Shown here: positions 1-49,448 of the stretch, in pieces
Layout: every line of letters begins with the position of its first letter
Numbering within the stretch: the first letter of the stretch is position 1
DNA from: Ruminococcus flavefaciens
Lineage (GTDB): Bacteria; Bacillota; Clostridia; Oscillospirales; Ruminococcaceae
DNA length: 53,353 nucleotides
Direction: 5' to 3'
NCBI GenBank assembly: GCA_023663905.1
Contig: JAMPGO010000006.1
Coordinates: 1 to 53,353, forward strand
The notes under the pieces: model-generated
Databases searched by the model: none
What the model saw: the letters and a program-made list of their open reading frames with translations, nothing else
Told to the model about the DNA's origin: nothing
Program-made: the position numbers and the translations under genes

Positions 1-2084
1 CCTTCTGTTGCCAGCATAGCAATACTGCCAAGTTCATATTCATTGTCAAACGTATAAACCAGACCGTTGCTGCCAACTCCTGTGTAACCGCCGTCATTCC
101 AGGAAACTTTCTTGTAATATGAAACTGCGTCGCCGTCAACTGTTCCCCACGCTGTATTTGTAAGACTGTCATCAAGAGGACTGTCCTCCATTGTAGTACC
201 GCTGTATCTTGTGGCAGAAACAATATGCGCACTTCCCGGAGTACCGTTTTCGTCACGGTTAATCATATTGTATCTCGGAGCTTCAGCAGGATTTATGCTT
301 GTTGTCGTTGCAACACAGTGAAGAGACTGCGGACTTTCGCCAAGCTCATTAACACCTGTAACATAAATCTCGTACTCTGTCTTGTCCTGCAACTCGGGAA
401 TCAGACGGGATGTACCGCTGATGCCTGTAATTACTGTGTAATCATCTGCGCTGTTTTTGATTTTATAGTAAACGTTATAGGACTGTGTATCATCCATATT
501 TGCCCATTTTACATTAATGCTCTGATATTTTCCCTCTGCCGAAACGTTATCGGGCTTATCAGGTCTCTTGTTGGGCTTCGGAGTAACTTCAATCTCTTTT
601 GAATAACCGCTCTTCCACGAACCGTTAACCGACTGAACGCTTACTTTGTAGGTGGTGTAATTCTTGACATCCTTGCCCTTGAAAGAAGTAATAACAACTG
701 AATTTGCAACAGTGTTTACTGTTTCAAAGGTTTTTGCGTCGTTGCCCTGCTGGATTTTCACTTCATAGCCCTTTACGTTCTGACAAGGGTCCCAGCTTAT
801 AATGAACTGTTCGCTTCCTGCTTTTGCCGTGATATTTTCGGGAATATCCATTTCAGGCTCAGAAATACGGCTTTCCATACCGTTTACGAACTCAACCTTG
901 CTGATTTCCGCAAGATTTGTGTTTTTCTGCATACCCAGAATCTTAAGAGTAACTTTCTTGATAGCAACCTGTGCGCCGAAATTGATTTGAATATTGCCGT
1001 TTTCATCAACAGAAGCTCTTATTTCGCTTTCTTCAAGCAAATGGTCAACACCTTCTATTACAGGTACAAGAATAGTATGTTCTGCTCCGTTTTCATCGAC
1101 ATATACAAAATCAATCTCCGCTCTTGAAACGGCATTTTTCTCTCCGCTTTTATCAACAAAGCCTGTATCAAAAACCATACCGTCAACTACAGTTGCCTCA
1201 TCGCCTTCTGCCAGCTCAAAACCGATTGTTACGGGGTTTTCTTCCGAAATATTACCGCCCTCAGCAGGAGCGATACGTACAGAACCTTCACCGCTGATAA
1301 CATCTTCAACAGAACCTGCGTGAATTGCCGTACTGTCAGGAACATCAGGAGTTACGGCAGCAGGCGAAACAGATACTTCAATATTTGCCGATGTGTCCTT
1401 GTCATCTTCCTTGTAGCTGTCTGAAAAGAATGTCAGGTCAGCCAGATTTGTTTTATCGTCGTTGTTAAGGTCAGTGTCATAATCCTGCTCCGTAACAACA
1501 CCGTCAATCTTGTTTATAAGTATATCCTTGTCGCTGTCGTTAACCTTGCCGTCGCCGTTAACATCGCCTACCATAAGAACTCCGGGATGAAGTCCGTTTT
1601 CTTCATATTTATAACCCGTGCAGAAACCTGCTGTCAGCCTTACGGAATAACGCTTCTTTTCAACTGTAACATCCTGTCTGTAAGATGCAAATCCGGGCGC
1701 TTTGACTTCAACAGTATAATCGCCGTCAGGAAGATTTTCAAAGCTGATTTTGTTCTCATCTGATTTTCCTGCTTCAATAGGCTTTGTTTTGGATTTGCCC
1801 TCAGCGTTTGTCAATTTTACAGAAAATATAACGCTTTTTTCAAGAGCCAGAGCCGAGCTTATTGAAACATCAATTCTTCCCACTGCATTGACATCTGATA
1901 TATCGGTTGAGTCATCCGATGATGATTCAGTTTTTTCGCTCGCAGACAAAACAGAATTTCTGTCTTTCTGAGATGTACCGATACCAGAAATAGCAGCCTC
2001 AGCATTTATTGACTGAGGAAAACTGCATACCATAGATAATGCCAGCAAGAAAGCAGTTTTTCTGAAACCACGTTTTCCCATCAT
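1..2084 (-). CDS. Secreted dockerin-like / fibronectin type III multidomain protein, 3' part beyond window
   Basis: The frame is open from about 2093 to the window edge, so only the first ~695 residues are visible. It begins with a signal peptide (basic start GKRGFRK, then a hydrophobic LLALSMV stretch ending near residue 33). There follows a Ser/Asp-rich linker, a carboxypeptidase-regulatory-like beta domain (around GDYTVEVKAPGF), and near residues 175-230 a dockerin-like pair of calcium loops (DVNGDGKVN and DLNNDDKTN). A beta-rich domain comes next, then two fibronectin type III domains (about 414-500 and 505-590). The last visible part (LVYTFDNEYELGS) resembles the start of a discoidin-type domain. 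ATG codons lie at 2093, 2084 and 2081; the AGAAAGGG ribosome site abuts the first, so 2084 is preferred. An extracellular adhesin or glycan-binding structural role is inferred. Expression is probably controlled by the c-di-GMP riboswitch in its leader. Confidence 0.85.
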   Translation of the reverse strand, partial: MMGKRGFRKTAFLLALSMVCSFPQSINAEAAISGIGTSQKDRNSVLSASEKTESSSDDSTDISDVNAVGRIDVSISSALALEKSVIFSVKLTNAEGKSKTKPIEAGKSDENKISFENLPDGDYTVEVKAPGFASYRQDVTVEKKRYSVRLTAGFCTGYKYEENGLHPGVLMVGDVNGDGKVNDSDKDILINKIDGVVTEQDYDTDLNNDDKTNLADLTFFSDSYKEDDKDTSANIEVSVSPAAVTPDVPDSTAIHAGSVEDVISGEGSVRIAPAEGGNISEENPVTIGFELAEGDEATVVDGMVFDTGFVDKSGEKNAVSRAEIDFVYVDENGAEHTILVPVIEGVDHLLEESEIRASVDENGNIQINFGAQVAIKKVTLKILGMQKNTNLAEISKVEFVNGMESRISEPEMDIPENITAKAGSEQFIISWDPCQNVKGYEVKIQQGNDAKTFETVNTVANSVVITSFKGKDVKNYTTYKVSVQSVNGSWKSGYSKEIEVTPKPNKRPDKPDNVSAEGKYQSINVKWANMDDTQSYNVYYKIKNSADDYTVITGISGTSRLIPELQDKTEYEIYVTGVNELGESPQSLHCVATTTSINPAEAPRYNMINRDENGTPGSAHIVSATRYSGTTMEDSPLDDSLTNTAWGTVDGDAVSYYKKVSWNDGGYTGVGSNGLVYTFDNEYELGSIAMLATE

Positions 2085-2129
2085 ATCTTTCATACCCTTT
2101 CTGATTTCGGCAACTCTTATGACGATAAG

Positions 2130-2169
2130 AACAAAAAACAGCTTTATCTTCTGAAGATACAGCTGTTAA
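2130..2169 (-). terminator. Expression-platform terminator of the c-di-GMP riboswitch
   Basis: Read on the minus strand, AACAGCTGTATCTTC and the complementary GATAAAGCTGTT arm form a hairpin followed directly by TTTTTTG. It lies between the aptamer and the coding region, the usual place for a transcription attenuator. A second short hairpin (ACCGCTCGGCGGTT) sits between aptamer and terminator and may be the alternative pairing partner. Confidence 0.8.
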
Positions 2170-2194
2170 CGTAAACAACCGCCGAGCGGTTATC

Positions 2195-2275
2195 TGCAAC
2201 TGGCTGTCATACCGTTCACGGCTTAGACCCTTCAGCTTTGCGTCCCTATTTTTCAATAAGTTTGCCAAATTTAGT
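2195..2275 (-). promoter_or_regulatory. Cyclic-di-GMP-I (GEMM-I) riboswitch aptamer
   Basis: On the minus strand the leader contains, in order, the hallmark GEMM-I segments: GGCAAAC, a GAAA tetraloop, GGGACGCAAAGC, a CTAAG tetraloop receptor, a short hairpin (GCCGTGAACGGT) and GACAGCCAGTTGC. Both order and spacing match the Vibrio Vc2 aptamer as I remember it. It is followed by a terminator and then the dockerin/FN3 gene, so second-messenger control of a surface protein is the natural reading. Which direction the switch works (on or off) cannot be told by eye. Confidence 0.92.
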
Positions 2276-2285
2276 TTATACTTAT

Positions 2286-2313
2286 ATTATAATCATTTTT
2301 TTCAATAAGTCAA
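2286..2313 (-). promoter_or_regulatory. Promoter of the riboswitch and dockerin/FN3 transcript
   Basis: On the minus strand TTGACT (2313-2308) and TATAAT (2291-2286) are separated by 16 bases, placing transcription start just upstream of the aptamer. Confidence 0.75.
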
Positions 2314-43886: not shown

Positions 43887-45023
43887 TTAGCCTGCGATAG
43901 CCCTGATATACGCTACAACGTCGTTTGAATCAACAACACCGTCGCAGTTAATATCGGCTGCGTTGAGTTCTGCTGCCGAGAGAGTGGAAATTCCGTCGGG
44001 CAGTAAAGCTTTCTGCTGTAAATATGTGTTAAGCAGGGCAATATCATACTTGTCCACGCTTCCGTCGTTGTTTATGTCTCCTCTGATTTGCTGAACCTTT
44101 TCTGTTTCGGCAAGAAGATTGACATCAACCCAGCCTGTGAAATCAGCCGATTCAATCAGACCGTAGTTGCCGTCGTATTCAGCGATACTTACAACATTTC
44201 CGGGTGTGAGAGTTGCCGAAATGCTTCCGCCGTCAACTCCTGAATAAACAGTGACAGGTGCGCTGTTCTGAACGAAATACTCATCTTCAGGAATATCAAC
44301 AACACTGCTGTTCACAGAACCGTCGGGCGGATTCTTGCCCTTTAAAAACCAGTATTCGCCCTGTAAACCGCTCGGATATGCGGAATAAAGGTCTGTTTCC
44401 TGCTTTGCAGGGTCGCACATAGTGATATTGCCGTCGTCATCAACGCTCTTGATGTATACCCAGTGGTAACCGCCGTATTCCGTAACAACTCTTGCGATGA
44501 CATACCAGCCCTCGCTGTTTTTCTGCCTGATTTCATCGGCAGTGGTGTACTTATCCGTGCTTGTGAAATAAGCGTCACCGCCCCATTCAATCAACGGCAT
44601 AAGCTTATTAATTGTACCCCAGCTTGCGATTGCACCGCCCGAAGTAAAGCCGTTAACGCTTGTATATGCGTTTGCAAGAACTCCGGGATTGAACTGCTCA
44701 ATATCGGTTATGCCCATATTCGCCATTGCCGTATCGTCGATTGAATCGGATTCAACCGCCATTATAGCAAGAGACGTGAGCAGACAGCCCGAACTTCTGA
44801 TGTTGGAATAGCCCATAGGTGTACTTCCCCAGCGCTCGTCAAGCTGACTCCACGAAAGATACTCGTCATATATGGAACTTCCGTCGGAATATCCCGTTGC
44901 GGTATCACTGTAGTCATAGTCAGCCATTGAAGCTGTAGGTATCATAAAGCATAATGACATTACAAATGCCGAAATTACGCTGAAAATCTTTTTGCCGTTA
45001 CGTTGGTTATGCACGTACTGCAC
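43887..45023 (-). CDS. Secreted C39-like cysteine peptidase with SH3-like and dockerin domains
   Basis: A signal peptide (KKIFSVISAFVMSLCFMIPTASMA) is followed by a C39-like papain-fold domain. Its catalytic Cys lies in RSSGCLLTSLAIMA, the His in GYHWVYIKSV and an Asp in MCDPAKQ. An SH3-like module follows (about 245-305: APVTVYSGVDGGSISATL, TGWVDVNLL). At the C-terminus are two dockerin repeats, GDINNDGSVDKYDIALLNTYL and ADINCDGVVDSNDVVAYIRAI. It should act outside the cell, docking on a cohesin scaffold, on peptide or wall substrates. GTG at 45023 is 9 bases from AGGAGG; TTG at 45032 abuts it. The gene lies 31 bases after the TgpA gene. Confidence 0.9.
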   Translation of the reverse strand: MQYVHNQRNGKKIFSVISAFVMSLCFMIPTASMADYDYSDTATGYSDGSSIYDEYLSWSQLDERWGSTPMGYSNIRSSGCLLTSLAIMAVESDSIDDTAMANMGITDIEQFNPGVLANAYTSVNGFTSGGAIASWGTINKLMPLIEWGGDAYFTSTDKYTTADEIRQKNSEGWYVIARVVTEYGGYHWVYIKSVDDDGNITMCDPAKQETDLYSAYPSGLQGEYWFLKGKNPPDGSVNSSVVDIPEDEYFVQNSAPVTVYSGVDGGSISATLTPGNVVSIAEYDGNYGLIESADFTGWVDVNLLAETEKVQQIRGDINNDGSVDKYDIALLNTYLQQKALLPDGISTLSAAELNAADINCDGVVDSNDVVAYIRAIAG

Positions 45024-45054
45024 TGGTATCAACCTCCTTGAAATTTAAACGAAT

Positions 45055-47343
45055 CTATTTTTTACGTCTGAACTTCTGCCTTCTCTGCTCTTTTCTGTAT
45101 CTGCCGAGAGCTTCATAGGCAGAGATATACTCCCTCATCGCCACTTCCTTGTCATCGTCTGTAAGCTCTGCACCTCCATATTCCGCCTTGTCAAAAAGCA
45201 GTGCAGTAACGGAAATATCCGCCCCTGATATACTCTTCACGGTCTCCTGCGCCTCGTGCGAGGTACTGGAAACAGGAATCCTGTACAGTCGGCAGACACG
45301 GTGAATAACACCTGCAACTGCTTCATTCGGCTTTCTGCGATTGTTTATTATTCTGAAAAATCTATGTGCAAGAGCAGGATAAGCCAGTATAAACAGGAGC
45401 AGAATAATACATACTCCGAGAATAGCTATTCCTGCTTCGGACAACATACTTGTCGCCTGTCTGTCGTCGTCCTCGGACTGAACAGTATCAAAAGTCATCG
45501 TCGGCTCAAAAGTAACCCAGCCGAAGCCCTTTATATAAAGCTCGGGGAAGCCGTGCGAATCATTTGCCGTTATGACGTACATATCATCATCACGGCTGTT
45601 CTCGTACTTCGTCTGCATATTGAATCCCTCGCAGTAGCGTGCGGGAATACCTGAAGCCCTTGCGAGAAGCGTCATAGCCGTCGCATATTCATAGCATACG
45701 CCCTTTTTCGTCCTGAAAAGGAAATCTTCGGCATTTTCTCCGACTTCCTTGCGGTAACTCAAATCATAGGTGTAATTATTGTTGATGAAGTACCATTCAA
45801 GCGCCTCAGCCTTGTCGTAGTCGGATTCAAGACCGCCTGTTATTTCCTGTGCGAGATTGTAAATCCTCTCGTTACCGCCGTAATCAAGCAGGATTTCGTC
45901 AAACGAATCGTACAGCAGATTGACGTTAAGCACGTAAAAATAGTGGTCAAGCCTGTCGTAGTCCGTATCAGATACGGAGATTTCGTCAAGCCTTCTGCTT
46001 ATTATATCATACGCACTGTGAAGCATTCCTGAATAGTCATCAACCTCCGCAAGCCTGTCAACTGCCGATTTATTCCTCTCGTCGGAAAAAAAGCCGTCGG
46101 GAAGATAACTGTAGCGGAATCTCTCGTTGTATGAGAATTTCTCGCCGTCGTTACTGCTGATTACCGCACCCGACCGTGAAAGAAGAATCTTGTCTTCATA
46201 CGAGCTTTCAAGAAGCTGTCTCGCACTCTGAGGTGCAGGAGTTCTTGTGCCTGCCTGATATGAGGAAAATATCTGCATTTCACGCAGTTCGGGATAAACA
46301 GGCTCAAAGCCTGCGTATTCTGCAATACCGTATTTTTCGGCAAAACCGCTGTCAATATCAGCCACATAGAAAAGAACATCGCACAGCTCGGCATTCATAG
46401 GTATGTCAAACGGCTGTTCGGTCATAGTGTAGCAGAGGTCGTCTGTATCGCTTATTGACCACGAGTCGTTTTTATAGTCATAAGTCGAAAAAGTAGTGGT
46501 TTTCAGCCTTAAACCTTCATCGGCACGGGCATAATACAACGGCGTATCGCTCATTTGCCCTCTGAACTGCTCGCCTGTTGCCGTATCACGGAAAACGTTA
46601 AGCATTTCGTTCAGCCTGTCGGTGAATGCGTCGGCATTAATCAGCGTTTCGAGAATCGTTCTGTCCGCTTCTATTGCAGGCTTAGGAATAATCGCCGCAA
46701 TAATGGCAAAAACCGCCGTAAAGATTATTCCCGACTTCCACGACTCCAGCCTGTCAATAACCTCAACATCCTTGTTACCGCTGAGCTGTCTGAAATAAAC
46801 CATAAACACAATATATCCCACAGAAAGGGCGATTATATACCCTGTCGGCATTGTCTGGTATTCCTTTGCGTATATGGCGAACGGAATAATCATTATCAGG
46901 AACGTCATAAATACCCTGTACTGGACTCGTGTGAAGAAGTACAGCACGGAAGCCATAAATATGAAGAAGAACGAAAATATCGCAAGCGTATACCACCTGC
47001 TGTATTGAAGTGCGTCCTGCGGAGTAATGAACCACAGCATAAACGAAATCGGGTAACTTTCCGCACCTTTGCTGACAAATCTTCCGAAGACGTTGAAGAA
47101 TCCGAATAAAACGATGATATATGCCAGTCCGCCTATGATTCTGTGCTTCTTCATATAGTCGAACAGCCTGAACATCACCCAGCCCATAACGTAGGTCGCT
47201 ATGCTGTAGGTAAGGGCAAGCTCCTCACGGTAATGGTACATTATTGATGACATAATCAGGGCAGTGTAGATAAGCACAGGGTCTGCCAGCGTATGTATGA
47301 GGAAGTTTTTGATTCCGCTTTGATTTTTAACAGTTTCAGTCAT
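45055..47343 (-). CDS. TgpA-type membrane transglutaminase-like protein
   Basis: The 762-residue protein has 5-6 membrane segments in the first ~230 residues, a long external region, a transglutaminase-like core with Cys near residue 549 (KKGVCYEYATAMTLLARASGIPARYCEGF) and His near 594 (NDSHGFPELYIKGFGWVTFEPT), and one further membrane segment (GVCIILLLFILAYPAL) before a basic tail. The His is followed by Gly where Ala is usual. It is the third gene of the MoxR-DUF58-TgpA operon; the system's role is likely in envelope protein maturation, by family analogy. Confidence 0.9.
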   Translation of the reverse strand: MTETVKNQSGIKNFLIHTLADPVLIYTALIMSSIMYHYREELALTYSIATYVMGWVMFRLFDYMKKHRIIGGLAYIIVLFGFFNVFGRFVSKGAESYPISFMLWFITPQDALQYSRWYTLAIFSFFFIFMASVLYFFTRVQYRVFMTFLIMIIPFAIYAKEYQTMPTGYIIALSVGYIVFMVYFRQLSGNKDVEVIDRLESWKSGIIFTAVFAIIAAIIPKPAIEADRTILETLINADAFTDRLNEMLNVFRDTATGEQFRGQMSDTPLYYARADEGLRLKTTTFSTYDYKNDSWSISDTDDLCYTMTEQPFDIPMNAELCDVLFYVADIDSGFAEKYGIAEYAGFEPVYPELREMQIFSSYQAGTRTPAPQSARQLLESSYEDKILLSRSGAVISSNDGEKFSYNERFRYSYLPDGFFSDERNKSAVDRLAEVDDYSGMLHSAYDIISRRLDEISVSDTDYDRLDHYFYVLNVNLLYDSFDEILLDYGGNERIYNLAQEITGGLESDYDKAEALEWYFINNNYTYDLSYRKEVGENAEDFLFRTKKGVCYEYATAMTLLARASGIPARYCEGFNMQTKYENSRDDDMYVITANDSHGFPELYIKGFGWVTFEPTMTFDTVQSEDDDRQATSMLSEAGIAILGVCIILLLFILAYPALAHRFFRIINNRRKPNEAVAGVIHRVCRLYRIPVSSTSHEAQETVKSISGADISVTALLFDKAEYGGAELTDDDKEVAMREYISAYEALGRYRKEQRRQKFRRKK

Positions 47344-47347
47344 ATTT

Positions 47348-48508
47348 TTATACCTGTTTAAAGTTATTGTCGCCGTCGAGATACCACATCGGCAAGTCAG
47401 TGAGATTACGGCTTTCGGCGGAAACTCCTATGAGACTTGCATTGTCCTTGTCCTCGAGCGTTGAGATAATCCCCGCAATCTCGTCTCCGCAGTCGGTTGA
47501 GGCAATAACGCACGCACAGGCAGATGTGTTCTGAATGCGTATACGTCGCTCGGGAATTACTTTCGAGGCAAGCACTTTAAGCAGAAGCTGTGGCGGATAC
47601 TCGGGATTGTCCACGCTCTCCGAAATCAGCTCACCGCCTGCGCCGTAATATATAAAAGTACACGCTATGCCCTGATTAATCAGCAGGGAAACAAGTCCGA
47701 AAACGGAGGAAATCAGCTTTTCTTCCGTGATTACAGCTTCTTCGGGCTTGGCATTACCGCTTCGGTACAAATCGAGGGCAATAACAGGCTGAACAGAAGC
47801 TACGGCTTCATCAAGCCTGACCATAAGCCTGTTTTTCTTGGTGGAGAGCTTCCAGTTGATACGCTTCAGAGGGTCGCCCTGCACGTACTCACGGTGTTCA
47901 TAGCCCGGAGTTGTATTCGCCGAAAAAATAACTGCTGAGTCATTGTTTTCCTCGTCGTCGCTCGTAAGTACGGAATCGGCTATACTGCGGAAAAGCTTTG
48001 ACGATGATTTAATCTGCGGAATCTCGGGAATTACTCCCACGCTTTTCGGCAAAGGCTCATTTTTAACCCTGAACCTGACAAATCCCAAAAAACCGCAAGA
48101 ATAAACGGATTTCACGGCAATCTCACCGTTTCCGCCTGTAACTGCGCTGACTTCGTAAGTAAACGTTTTCTTATCAGCTCCTGCAACCGAAAGCCTGAAT
48201 ATTTTTTTATCCTGAGCGAAAACCTCGCTAGAATATGTATCAATCTGCACAATACCGAGCGGAAATCTGCCCTCTTTTTCTACAGTTACTCTGACAGTAA
48301 GCTTGCTGTTTTTTTTGACATAGCCGTCGCAATCGAAACTGACTTTGATTCTGTTGCGGGCATACAGTGCGAAAATCAGGGAAACAATCGGCGCAATCAG
48401 GACGAATGCTGTAAGAATCACACCTATTTCGCCGTCCATATAAAAAGTAAAAATATATAACAGAAATACTACTGCCAGCGGTGAAATCAATGATACTAAT
48501 TTCTTCAT
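47348..48508 (-). CDS. DUF58 domain-containing protein
   Basis: The 386-residue protein has an N-terminal membrane pair (AVVFLLYIFTFYMDGEIGVILTAFVLIAPIV) and the DUF58 hallmark YVQGDPLKRINWKLSTKKNRLMVRLDE, with a von Willebrand-A-like region after it. DUF58 proteins act with MoxR ATPases, whose gene precedes this one by one base. The partner substrate is unknown. ATG at 48508. Confidence 0.93.
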   Translation of the reverse strand: MKKLVSLISPLAVVFLLYIFTFYMDGEIGVILTAFVLIAPIVSLIFALYARNRIKVSFDCDGYVKKNSKLTVRVTVEKEGRFPLGIVQIDTYSSEVFAQDKKIFRLSVAGADKKTFTYEVSAVTGGNGEIAVKSVYSCGFLGFVRFRVKNEPLPKSVGVIPEIPQIKSSSKLFRSIADSVLTSDDEENNDSAVIFSANTTPGYEHREYVQGDPLKRINWKLSTKKNRLMVRLDEAVASVQPVIALDLYRSGNAKPEEAVITEEKLISSVFGLVSLLINQGIACTFIYYGAGGELISESVDNPEYPPQLLLKVLASKVIPERRIRIQNTSACACVIASTDCGDEIAGIISTLEDKDNASLIGVSAESRNLTDLPMWYLDGDNNFKQV

Positions 48509-48509
48509 A

Positions 48510-49448
48510 CTACTTACTCATCGAGGGTACGGGAACGGTTTCGAGGATGTGCTTAACGTATTCCTCAGCTGTTCCGAACTCGCTTTTGCCCTGCGGAGAA
48601 AGAATAATTCTGTGGGCAAGGACGGAAACTCCTGCAATCTTCACGTCGTCGGGAGTAACATATTCCCTCTCATAGATGTACGCAAAGGCTTTTGAAGCCT
48701 TGTAAAGTGCGATACTTCCACGTGGGCTGATTCCGAGAGAAGCGTTGCGGTCGTTTCGGGTTGACGTTACAATGTCGATAACGTACCTGCGCACCTGCTC
48801 GGTAACACGCACTTTACGCACTTCCTCCTGCATTTCAAGAATCTCGTCAACGGTCAGGACTGCGCTGTCTATGTTATTGATAGGGTTCTGCATTTCCGTT
48901 CTTTCGAGGATTTTCAGCTCCTCGGAAGGGTCGGGATAGCCCATAGACAGCTTCATAAAAAATCTGTCCATCTGCGCTTCGGGAAGATGAAATGTGCCGT
49001 AAGTTTCAACAGGATTCTGCGTAGCCATTACCAGAAAAGGCTTGGGAAGCCTGTGAGTTGCGCCGTCCATAGAAATCTGGCGCTCCTCCATAGCTTCAAG
49101 AAGTGCCGACTGAACCTTCGGCGAGGCACGGTTTATCTCATCCGCAAGGAGAAAATTGCACATAACCGCACCGTCACGGTAGATAAATTCGCCCGACTTT
49201 GAATCAAGCATTGTAAATCCGGCAATATCAGACGGCATAACGTCGGGAGTGAGCTGAATACGGTTGAATTTTCCGCCGACAGAACGTGAGAGAGCCGTGA
49301 TGAGCTGGGTTTTTCCAACTCCGGGAACGTCCTCCAGCAGAACGTGACCCTCGCAGAGCATTGCGGAAATTAATTTTATGATAGTATCGTCCTTTCCGAC
49401 GATGACTTTTTTGATTGAATCAGCAAGAGTATTGACTTTATTATTCAT
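48510..49448 (-). CDS. MoxR-family AAA ATPase
   Basis: The 312-residue protein has Walker A VPGVGKT (41-47), Walker B LLADEINRASP, the MoxR signature EAMEERQISMDG and MATQNPVETYGTFHLPEAQMDRFFMK, and the sensor region GISPRGSIALYKASKAFA. It probably works as a chaperone for the DUF58 and transglutaminase partners. It has its own promoter and heads the operon. Confidence 0.96.
   Translation of the reverse strand: MNNKVNTLADSIKKVIVGKDDTIIKLISAMLCEGHVLLEDVPGVGKTQLITALSRSVGGKFNRIQLTPDVMPSDIAGFTMLDSKSGEFIYRDGAVMCNFLLADEINRASPKVQSALLEAMEERQISMDGATHRLPKPFLVMATQNPVETYGTFHLPEAQMDRFFMKLSMGYPDPSEELKILERTEMQNPINNIDSAVLTVDEILEMQEEVRKVRVTEQVRRYVIDIVTSTRNDRNASLGISPRGSIALYKASKAFAYIYEREYVTPDDVKIAGVSVLAHRIILSPQGKSEFGTAEEYVKHILETVPVPSMSK

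Follow-up and report, generated by a model that had tools for sequence, protein, structure and literature searches.

In Clostridioides difficile, a class-I riboswitch for cyclic diguanosine monophosphate (c-di-GMP), Cdi1_12, precedes zmpI (PPEP-1, CD2830), the gene for a secreted zinc metallopeptidase that is described as repressed by c-di-GMP; the system also involves sortase-anchored wall proteins, and ZmpI is described as cutting the bacterium's own sortase-anchored surface proteins (PMC4591827). Here we describe a comparable arrangement in a 53,353-nucleotide stretch of Ruminococcus flavefaciens DNA (assembly GCA_023663905.1, contig JAMPGO010000006.1), called contig C66 or the window below. 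On its minus strand, a c-di-GMP-I (GEMM-I) aptamer and an intrinsic terminator stand before gene A, which probably encodes an M60-like peptidase with a dockerin-like domain and is directly followed by gene B, whose product has a domain of predicted cohesin fold. We consider it likely that this riboswitch acts as a transcriptional OFF switch for a cell-surface glycoprotein proteolysis operon consisting of A and B.

The locus differs from each of its closest described counterparts. Unlike ZmpI, gene A would encode an M60 protein of ~1,730 amino acids with dockerin-like, FN3 and F5/8C domains, and it adjoins a cohesin-fold gene. The sequences in the Protein Data Bank (PDB) nearest to its M60 part are "F5/8 type C domain protein" entries and the glycopeptidases ZmpC and ZmpA, which we take to come from Clostridium perfringens, with ZmpB presumably of the same type. 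Fold-search lists also include C. perfringens cohesin modules and the NagJ-NagH complex, which are non-cellulosomal pairs; the layout in that species is presumably different from the A-B(-sortase) one. The Limousia mucinolysome resembles the window in its cohesin-dockerin complexes and its dockerin-bearing peptidases for mucin, but it has multi-cohesin scaffoldins, whereas the B copies compared here mostly carry one cohesin-fold domain each, and the main text describing it makes no mention of M60, riboswitches or c-di-GMP (PMC12997984). In a survey of M60-like/PF13402 proteins, the table of accompanying domains has entries for the Gram-positive anchor region (5) and for Dockerin type 1 (2); neither cohesin nor Ruminococcus is named in its main text (PMC3267712). 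We found no precedent joining a c-di-GMP riboswitch to a dockerin in the open full-text literature, outside which subscription papers largely fall; the open papers that join c-di-GMP riboswitches and Ruminococcus concern C. difficile biofilm or type IV pili, and those that join such riboswitches and the cellulosome name the latter only once each. What appears to be new is the target, a dockerin-like M60 protein and a cohesin-fold partner behind a c-di-GMP switch, together with the visible decay of that switch among relatives. If this reading holds, a second messenger of lifestyle would have a direct link to proteolysis outside the cell in a gut genus that degrades fibre, and cohesin-dockerin docking would serve a peptidase outside the cellulosome proper through a cohesin unseen by sequence libraries.

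Aptamer, terminator and proposed direction of switching

The leader and the start of gene A comprise the following features, in order of transcription:

2286..2313, minus strand: promoter-like site, TTGACT-16-TATAAT, with 11/12 matches to the sigma-70-type consensus
2192..2276, minus strand: c-di-GMP-I (GEMM-I) aptamer, full length in the RF01051 covariance model
2196..2208, minus strand: aptamer 3′ strand GACAGCCAGUUGC, proposed 5′ strand of an antiterminator, from its complementarity to the terminator 5′ arm
2133..2167, minus strand: intrinsic terminator, hairpin 2167..2137 plus six U at 2138..2133, from folding energy
2104..2120, minus strand: AUAAGAGUUGCCGAAAU, strand of an outer leader stem just 5′ of the Shine-Dalgarno, kept in many leaders
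2095..2102, minus strand: Shine-Dalgarno AGAAAGGG, by sequence, with the same element in homologous leaders
1..2093, minus strand: 5′ portion of gene A (697 codons), running off the end of the contig

A sequence-only reading of this DNA had proposed a c-di-GMP-I riboswitch with a terminator here, to be checked with Infernal and RF01051. That search recovers the complete model (positions 1-87) at 2276..2192 on the minus strand, which the reading had left unstated, at 74.4 bits and thus well over the gathering score of 35 (E = 7.9e-13), and all the GEMM-I core segments that it named are present. This is the sole match over any gathering score when the whole window is run through cmscan, and no second RF01051 match occurs elsewhere in the 2.2-Mb, 82%-complete genome. 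The residues at three positions that we take to be the ligand contacts of Vc2 (G20, A47 and C92 in Vc2 numbering) are kept in the RF01051 alignment as G 2266, A 2239 and C 2196. The minimum-energy fold shows the three expected helices; its energy is not unusual (z −0.8; 42/200 shuffles equally good), so the case for the aptamer rests on the covariance model. On this evidence the window riboswitch is an ordinary, well-supported RF01051 member that would be expected to bind c-di-GMP. Aptamers have decayed in the relatives G086 and L241, and the window element could in principle be another decayed riboswitch with no ligand response, but its full length, its score and the three retained residues make this very unlikely. 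The aptamer begins ~9 bases downstream of the promoter-like site, and the transcript would start just 5′ of the aptamer. Since the genome holds 14 GGDEF and 8 EAL matches, the host probably synthesizes and breaks down c-di-GMP.

The predicted terminator is likewise borne out, as a hairpin of −12.8 kcal/mol (z −3.3) followed by the six U, and a simple consensus terminator scan of the window does not list this hairpin. CAGUUG of GACAGCCAGUUGC (in CAGUUGC) is complementary to CAGCUG in the terminator 5′ arm. The motif CA(A/G)CUG is found in this arm in six leaders, picked for pairing analysis because their terminator is visible (the window, G102, G054, G085, G068 and G088), and in G085 and G088 the complement extends to GACA-UGUC. 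In the nascent chain before the terminator 3′ arm emerges, the probability that the 5′ arm pairs with the aptamer region is 0.71–0.77 in the window, 0.37–0.48 in G102, 0.70–0.74 in G054, 0.99 in G085, 0.77 in G068 and 0.96–0.99 in G088. Because the terminator 5′ arm is complementary to the aptamer 3′ strand, a transcriptional OFF switch is favoured. At low c-di-GMP, the terminator 5′ arm would pair with free aptamer strands and RNA polymerase would read through; with c-di-GMP bound, these strands would be locked in the aptamer, the terminator would close and the operon would be off. This proposed direction agrees with that of seven functional C. difficile class-I switches, which are described as OFF (PMC6366702). 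The sequence-only reading had linked the switch to a sessile, fibre-attached state; the switch anatomy suggests OFF, and expression would therefore drop at high c-di-GMP, which is the opposite.

Several observations speak against this scheme. Only G085, G088 and G054 show strong formation of the precise six-pair antiterminator; in the window leader its P is only 0.07, and the pairing of ~0.7 consists of other pairs, first those with the aptamer 5′ GGC. At equilibrium the completed terminator wins in 6/6 leaders (P 0.93–1.0 at the release point), so the switching decision must be kinetic. Furthermore, among the Rfam-passing aptamer leaders before an A frame, only 8/15 have the six-base complement, namely the window (G000) and the other five leaders above together with L233 and L237, the last two by eye. 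It is imperfect in L235 and L276 and absent from G105, G106, G051, G027 and G108, whose leaders have another or no obvious expression platform.

The outer leader stem and other modes of control

A second element of the leader involves the aptamer directly. AUAAGAGUUGCCGAAAU can base-pair with AUUUGGCAAACUUAU, the 5′ strand of the aptamer (within 2270..2255), which includes a ligand-contact G, and because this outer stem uses the aptamer 5′ strand, stem and aptamer exclude each other. Closely similar versions of the two strands are retained in many paralogue leaders, both with and without an aptamer. Covariation is weak: 233/256 cells are paired in 32 leaders vs. a partner-swapped mean of 228.3, with 3.4% of swaps equally good; when the 10 aptamer leaders and the other 22 are counted separately, 12% and 11% of swaps, respectively, do as well. 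This count uses hand-chosen 8-base blocks and 32 leaders remaining after 21/53 had been excluded beforehand (G106, G076b, G110c, 13 in which no stem could be recognized and 5 of insufficient length). On duplex energy, a swap test separates true from swapped partners slightly in 36 leaders without an aptamer (−8.7 vs. −7.2) and not at all in the 11 aptamer leaders (−10.3 vs. −10.3). Support for the outer stem comes from its conserved sequence and from individual double-changes in G086 and G110a rather than from a strong statistic, and we favour its interpretation as an anti-aptamer or 5′-end stem.

This stem bears on whether the switch might instead be an ON switch, or might act on translation through the long-range stem that joins the pre-Shine-Dalgarno strand to the aptamer 5′ strand, with the terminator secondary or absent. 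The mutual exclusion of stem and aptamer would fit such control, as would the several leaders with an intact aptamer and no standard terminator and the mixed transcription-translation control described for Bacillus Bc1 (PMC11218506), but the outer stem leaves the Shine-Dalgarno uncovered, a 5′ arm with complementarity to the aptamer recurs in six terminators, and the functional C. difficile switches are described as OFF, so that we regard these alternatives as unlikely.

Two minor observations concern the same leaders. At 2081-2093 of the window the first ATG lies very near the Shine-Dalgarno, and the ATGs 3 and 4 codons further on have the more usual spacing. In paralogue leaders (e.g., L204, L205 and L208), a GGAG...CUCC hairpin can be read by eye close to the 5′ end, ahead of the outer stem.

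Gene A, gene B and their predicted docking

The part of gene A in the window encodes a signal-peptide-like start, a PEGA-like stretch, a dockerin-like domain (~codons 176-221) and two FN3 domains, with fn3 over cut-off. The gene presumably continues on contig C71, whose start repeats ~74 bases of the gene end on C66 with one difference (23/24 codons identical) and which carries an onward open frame of 1,068 codons (L094 1-3207); we therefore treat the two pieces as one gene. The C71 part matches Peptidase_M60 (PF13402) with 37.2 bits vs. a cut-off of 25.8 and F5/8C with 31.9 vs. 28.2, and its M60 motif reads HEIGHNINQSTYTVAEITNN. HExGH is present in 50/53 A homologues; its absence from the other three (G054, G102 and the window piece) reflects their incomplete frames. 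In the complete homologue G108 (1,726 amino acids), fn3 and M60 are over cut-off and the dockerin, M60-like_N and F5/8C matches are below it, all in the same domain order. A first contig scan with the N-terminal gene A protein found no relative. Gene A probably encodes a secreted M60-like zinc metallopeptidase, predicted to be a glycopeptidase, and its substrates may be mucin-type glycoproteins. The sequence-only reading, made from the N-terminal part of the controlled gene alone, had taken it for an adhesive, fibre-attaching protein; we dropped this identity because the M60 domain was found in the gene part beyond the window, whose closest solved relatives include named glycopeptidases.

Its further description as a secreted dockerin/FN3 protein stands for FN3 and needs softening for the dockerin. 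The domain shows the dockerin arrangement of two calcium loops with a helix after each. However, Dockerin_1 (PF00404) scores 18.4 in the window protein and 22.3 in the genome search, under the cut-off of 22.9, which is why we name the domain dockerin-like, and the homologues G108 (15.1) and G027 (20.3) also stay under it. In structure prediction, only 1/5 AlphaFold 2 models is fair (66.8; others 46–51), the best Z of 7.4 in the fold search falls in the range that the tool grades inconclusive, and Foldseek gives no match to the domain under E 0.001.

Gene B encodes a secreted protein, and the predicted structure of its N-terminal domain shows the cohesin jelly-roll fold. Of the B matches in the genus, 34/36 share their contig with a match to A or M60. 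Several relatives carry an LPQTG wall anchor on B, and a sortase follows B in 3/5 next genes tested. Other results count against a cohesin partner anchored at the surface. Foldseek TM-scores of B vs. cohesins are modest (0.48–0.55), Pfam cohesin (PF00963) has no match in six B proteins scanned, a PDB profile search of B found no cohesin, and hhalign of B vs. the cohesins of this genome gives a probability of 17%. We call B cohesin-fold because of this missing Pfam match and the low hhalign value. In addition, the B of the window genome has no LPXTG, and no sortase follows B in G105 or in the window genome. The idea that B belongs to a family known to Pfam was rejected, since the six proteins yield a single match over cut-off, the Gram-positive anchor of G102. 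Two small genes follow B (L094 4408-5683), neither with a Pfam family over cut-off; in the second, a similarity to the C-terminal half of B is visible by eye.

Taken together, B is a more likely docking partner of A than the scaffoldin is, and the A-B pair looks like a cohesin-dockerin peptidase display operon, with predicted docking, rather than a fibre adhesin. B, LPQTG-anchored in several relatives and with a sortase gene beside it in some, would dock A at the cell surface. Alternatively, under the same switch and gene, the dockerin-like domain of A could plug into the cellulosome and B could be a separate surface protein. The genome does have a cellulosome-like set: 9/11 rows of a cohesin search are over cut-off, seven of these nine matches lie in one 1753-aa frame, and 73/82 dockerin rows are over cut-off, two of them only with neighbours. 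Moreover, in G059 a GEMM-I aptamer (L099 4589-4678) precedes a GH26 gene with a dockerin over cut-off and CBM_35 below it, a more classical, ordinary cellulosomal architecture. We nevertheless think a cellulosomal role for A improbable, given that B has its own cohesin-like fold and in the genus nearly always shares a contig with A or M60 (the 34/36 above), and that A carries a divergent dockerin-like domain in its interior.

Distribution and decay of the aptamer

Among 199 relatives searched for RF01051, 41 have a match, and 13 of these are congeneric. The congeneric genomes hold 16 aptamers, 11 of which, in 11/13 of these genomes, lie directly before A. The two in G002 are tandem GEMM-I elements that run off the contig (L096 6864-6951 and 7094-7179), and the three in G059 precede the GH26 dockerin protein, an alpha-amylase-type gene and an aminotransferase-like gene (by eye). 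A or M60 is present in 25 genus genomes (24 over cut-off plus G054), and the corresponding Fisher test gives 4.6e-9 (12/13 vs. 13/109), a rough guide only because the genus size of 122 is an inferred figure and the genomes are related.

On a tree of 53 A homologues, midpoint-rooted for drawing only, the 11 aptamer leaders all fall within one of two paralogue groups and five changes are needed. With these changes and the decayed aptamer of G086, repeated loss of the aptamer across the A family is the simplest reading. A search for aptamer remnants finds only that of G086 unmistakable (20.0 bits vs. 6.2 for the best of 1,800 shuffles); other matches cover mainly the aptamer 5′ part, which is also a stem strand, and 16/36 leaders have no match. 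Decayed or weak GEMM-I elements before A are those of L194/L250 (G086), L241 (89-173) and L249 (G110b), and in G086 and L241 a terminator-like hairpin is retained (by eye). Among 80 named loci, the local model R1 finds 12 aptamers >50 bits, of which seven repeat the G genomes and five are new (L233, L235, L237, L241 and L276). The L237 aptamer follows the listed A frame and precedes an A-like frame without a recognized start, and that of L241 has 52.6 bits with R1 and is under the Rfam cut-off. Records labelled Lachnospiraceae among these loci have no aptamer with R1. With aptamers intact, decaying or missing ahead of a single gene family, riboswitch loss would be directly testable.

These patterns allow a fuller picture, which we advance tentatively and with rather less than even confidence. 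The dockerin-bearing M60 glycopeptidase and its own cohesin-fold anchor would form a self-contained display module under c-di-GMP control, apart from the cellulosome of the same cell; the anti-aptamer stem, able to form only once a transcript has escaped termination, would lock the mRNA in the ON state; and in paralogues, which keep this stem but have lost the aptamer, the riboswitch would have been reduced stepwise to a constitutive leader hairpin.

Outside the genus, G142 (another family) has two neighbouring M60 genes, each behind its own GEMM-I aptamer (L213 5800-5883 and 10789-10872; 72.1 and 71.7 bits). Their products have NPCBM and F5/8C domains and no dockerin match. G131, also outside the genus, has an M60 gene and no RF01051 match. 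M60 peptidases may thus be a recurrent c-di-GMP target, although one such genome is a hint only. The first frames behind 18 order-level aptamers, G142 included, comprise CheY-like, EAL, prepilin peptidase, transglutaminase and surface proteins; read by eye, mostly without a family search and in several cases without a convincing frame, these targets look like the usual mixture.

Some further observations concern single loci. In the G054 aptamer (L050 660-744), A replaces the first G of GGCAAAC, and the terminator and antiterminator complement are kept. We take the substituted position to be Vc2 G20, at which A is presumably linked to 3′,3′-cGAMP recognition. A G20A variant is treated in PMC6274999. 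The contig of L233 carries a fluoride riboswitch (1577-1649, 44.3 bits) as well as an A gene. Finally, in the window at 43887-49448 (minus strand), genes of transglutaminase-like, DUF58 and MoxR-type AAA families lie upstream of one for a 381-aa protein with a C-terminal dockerin of 41.5 bits.
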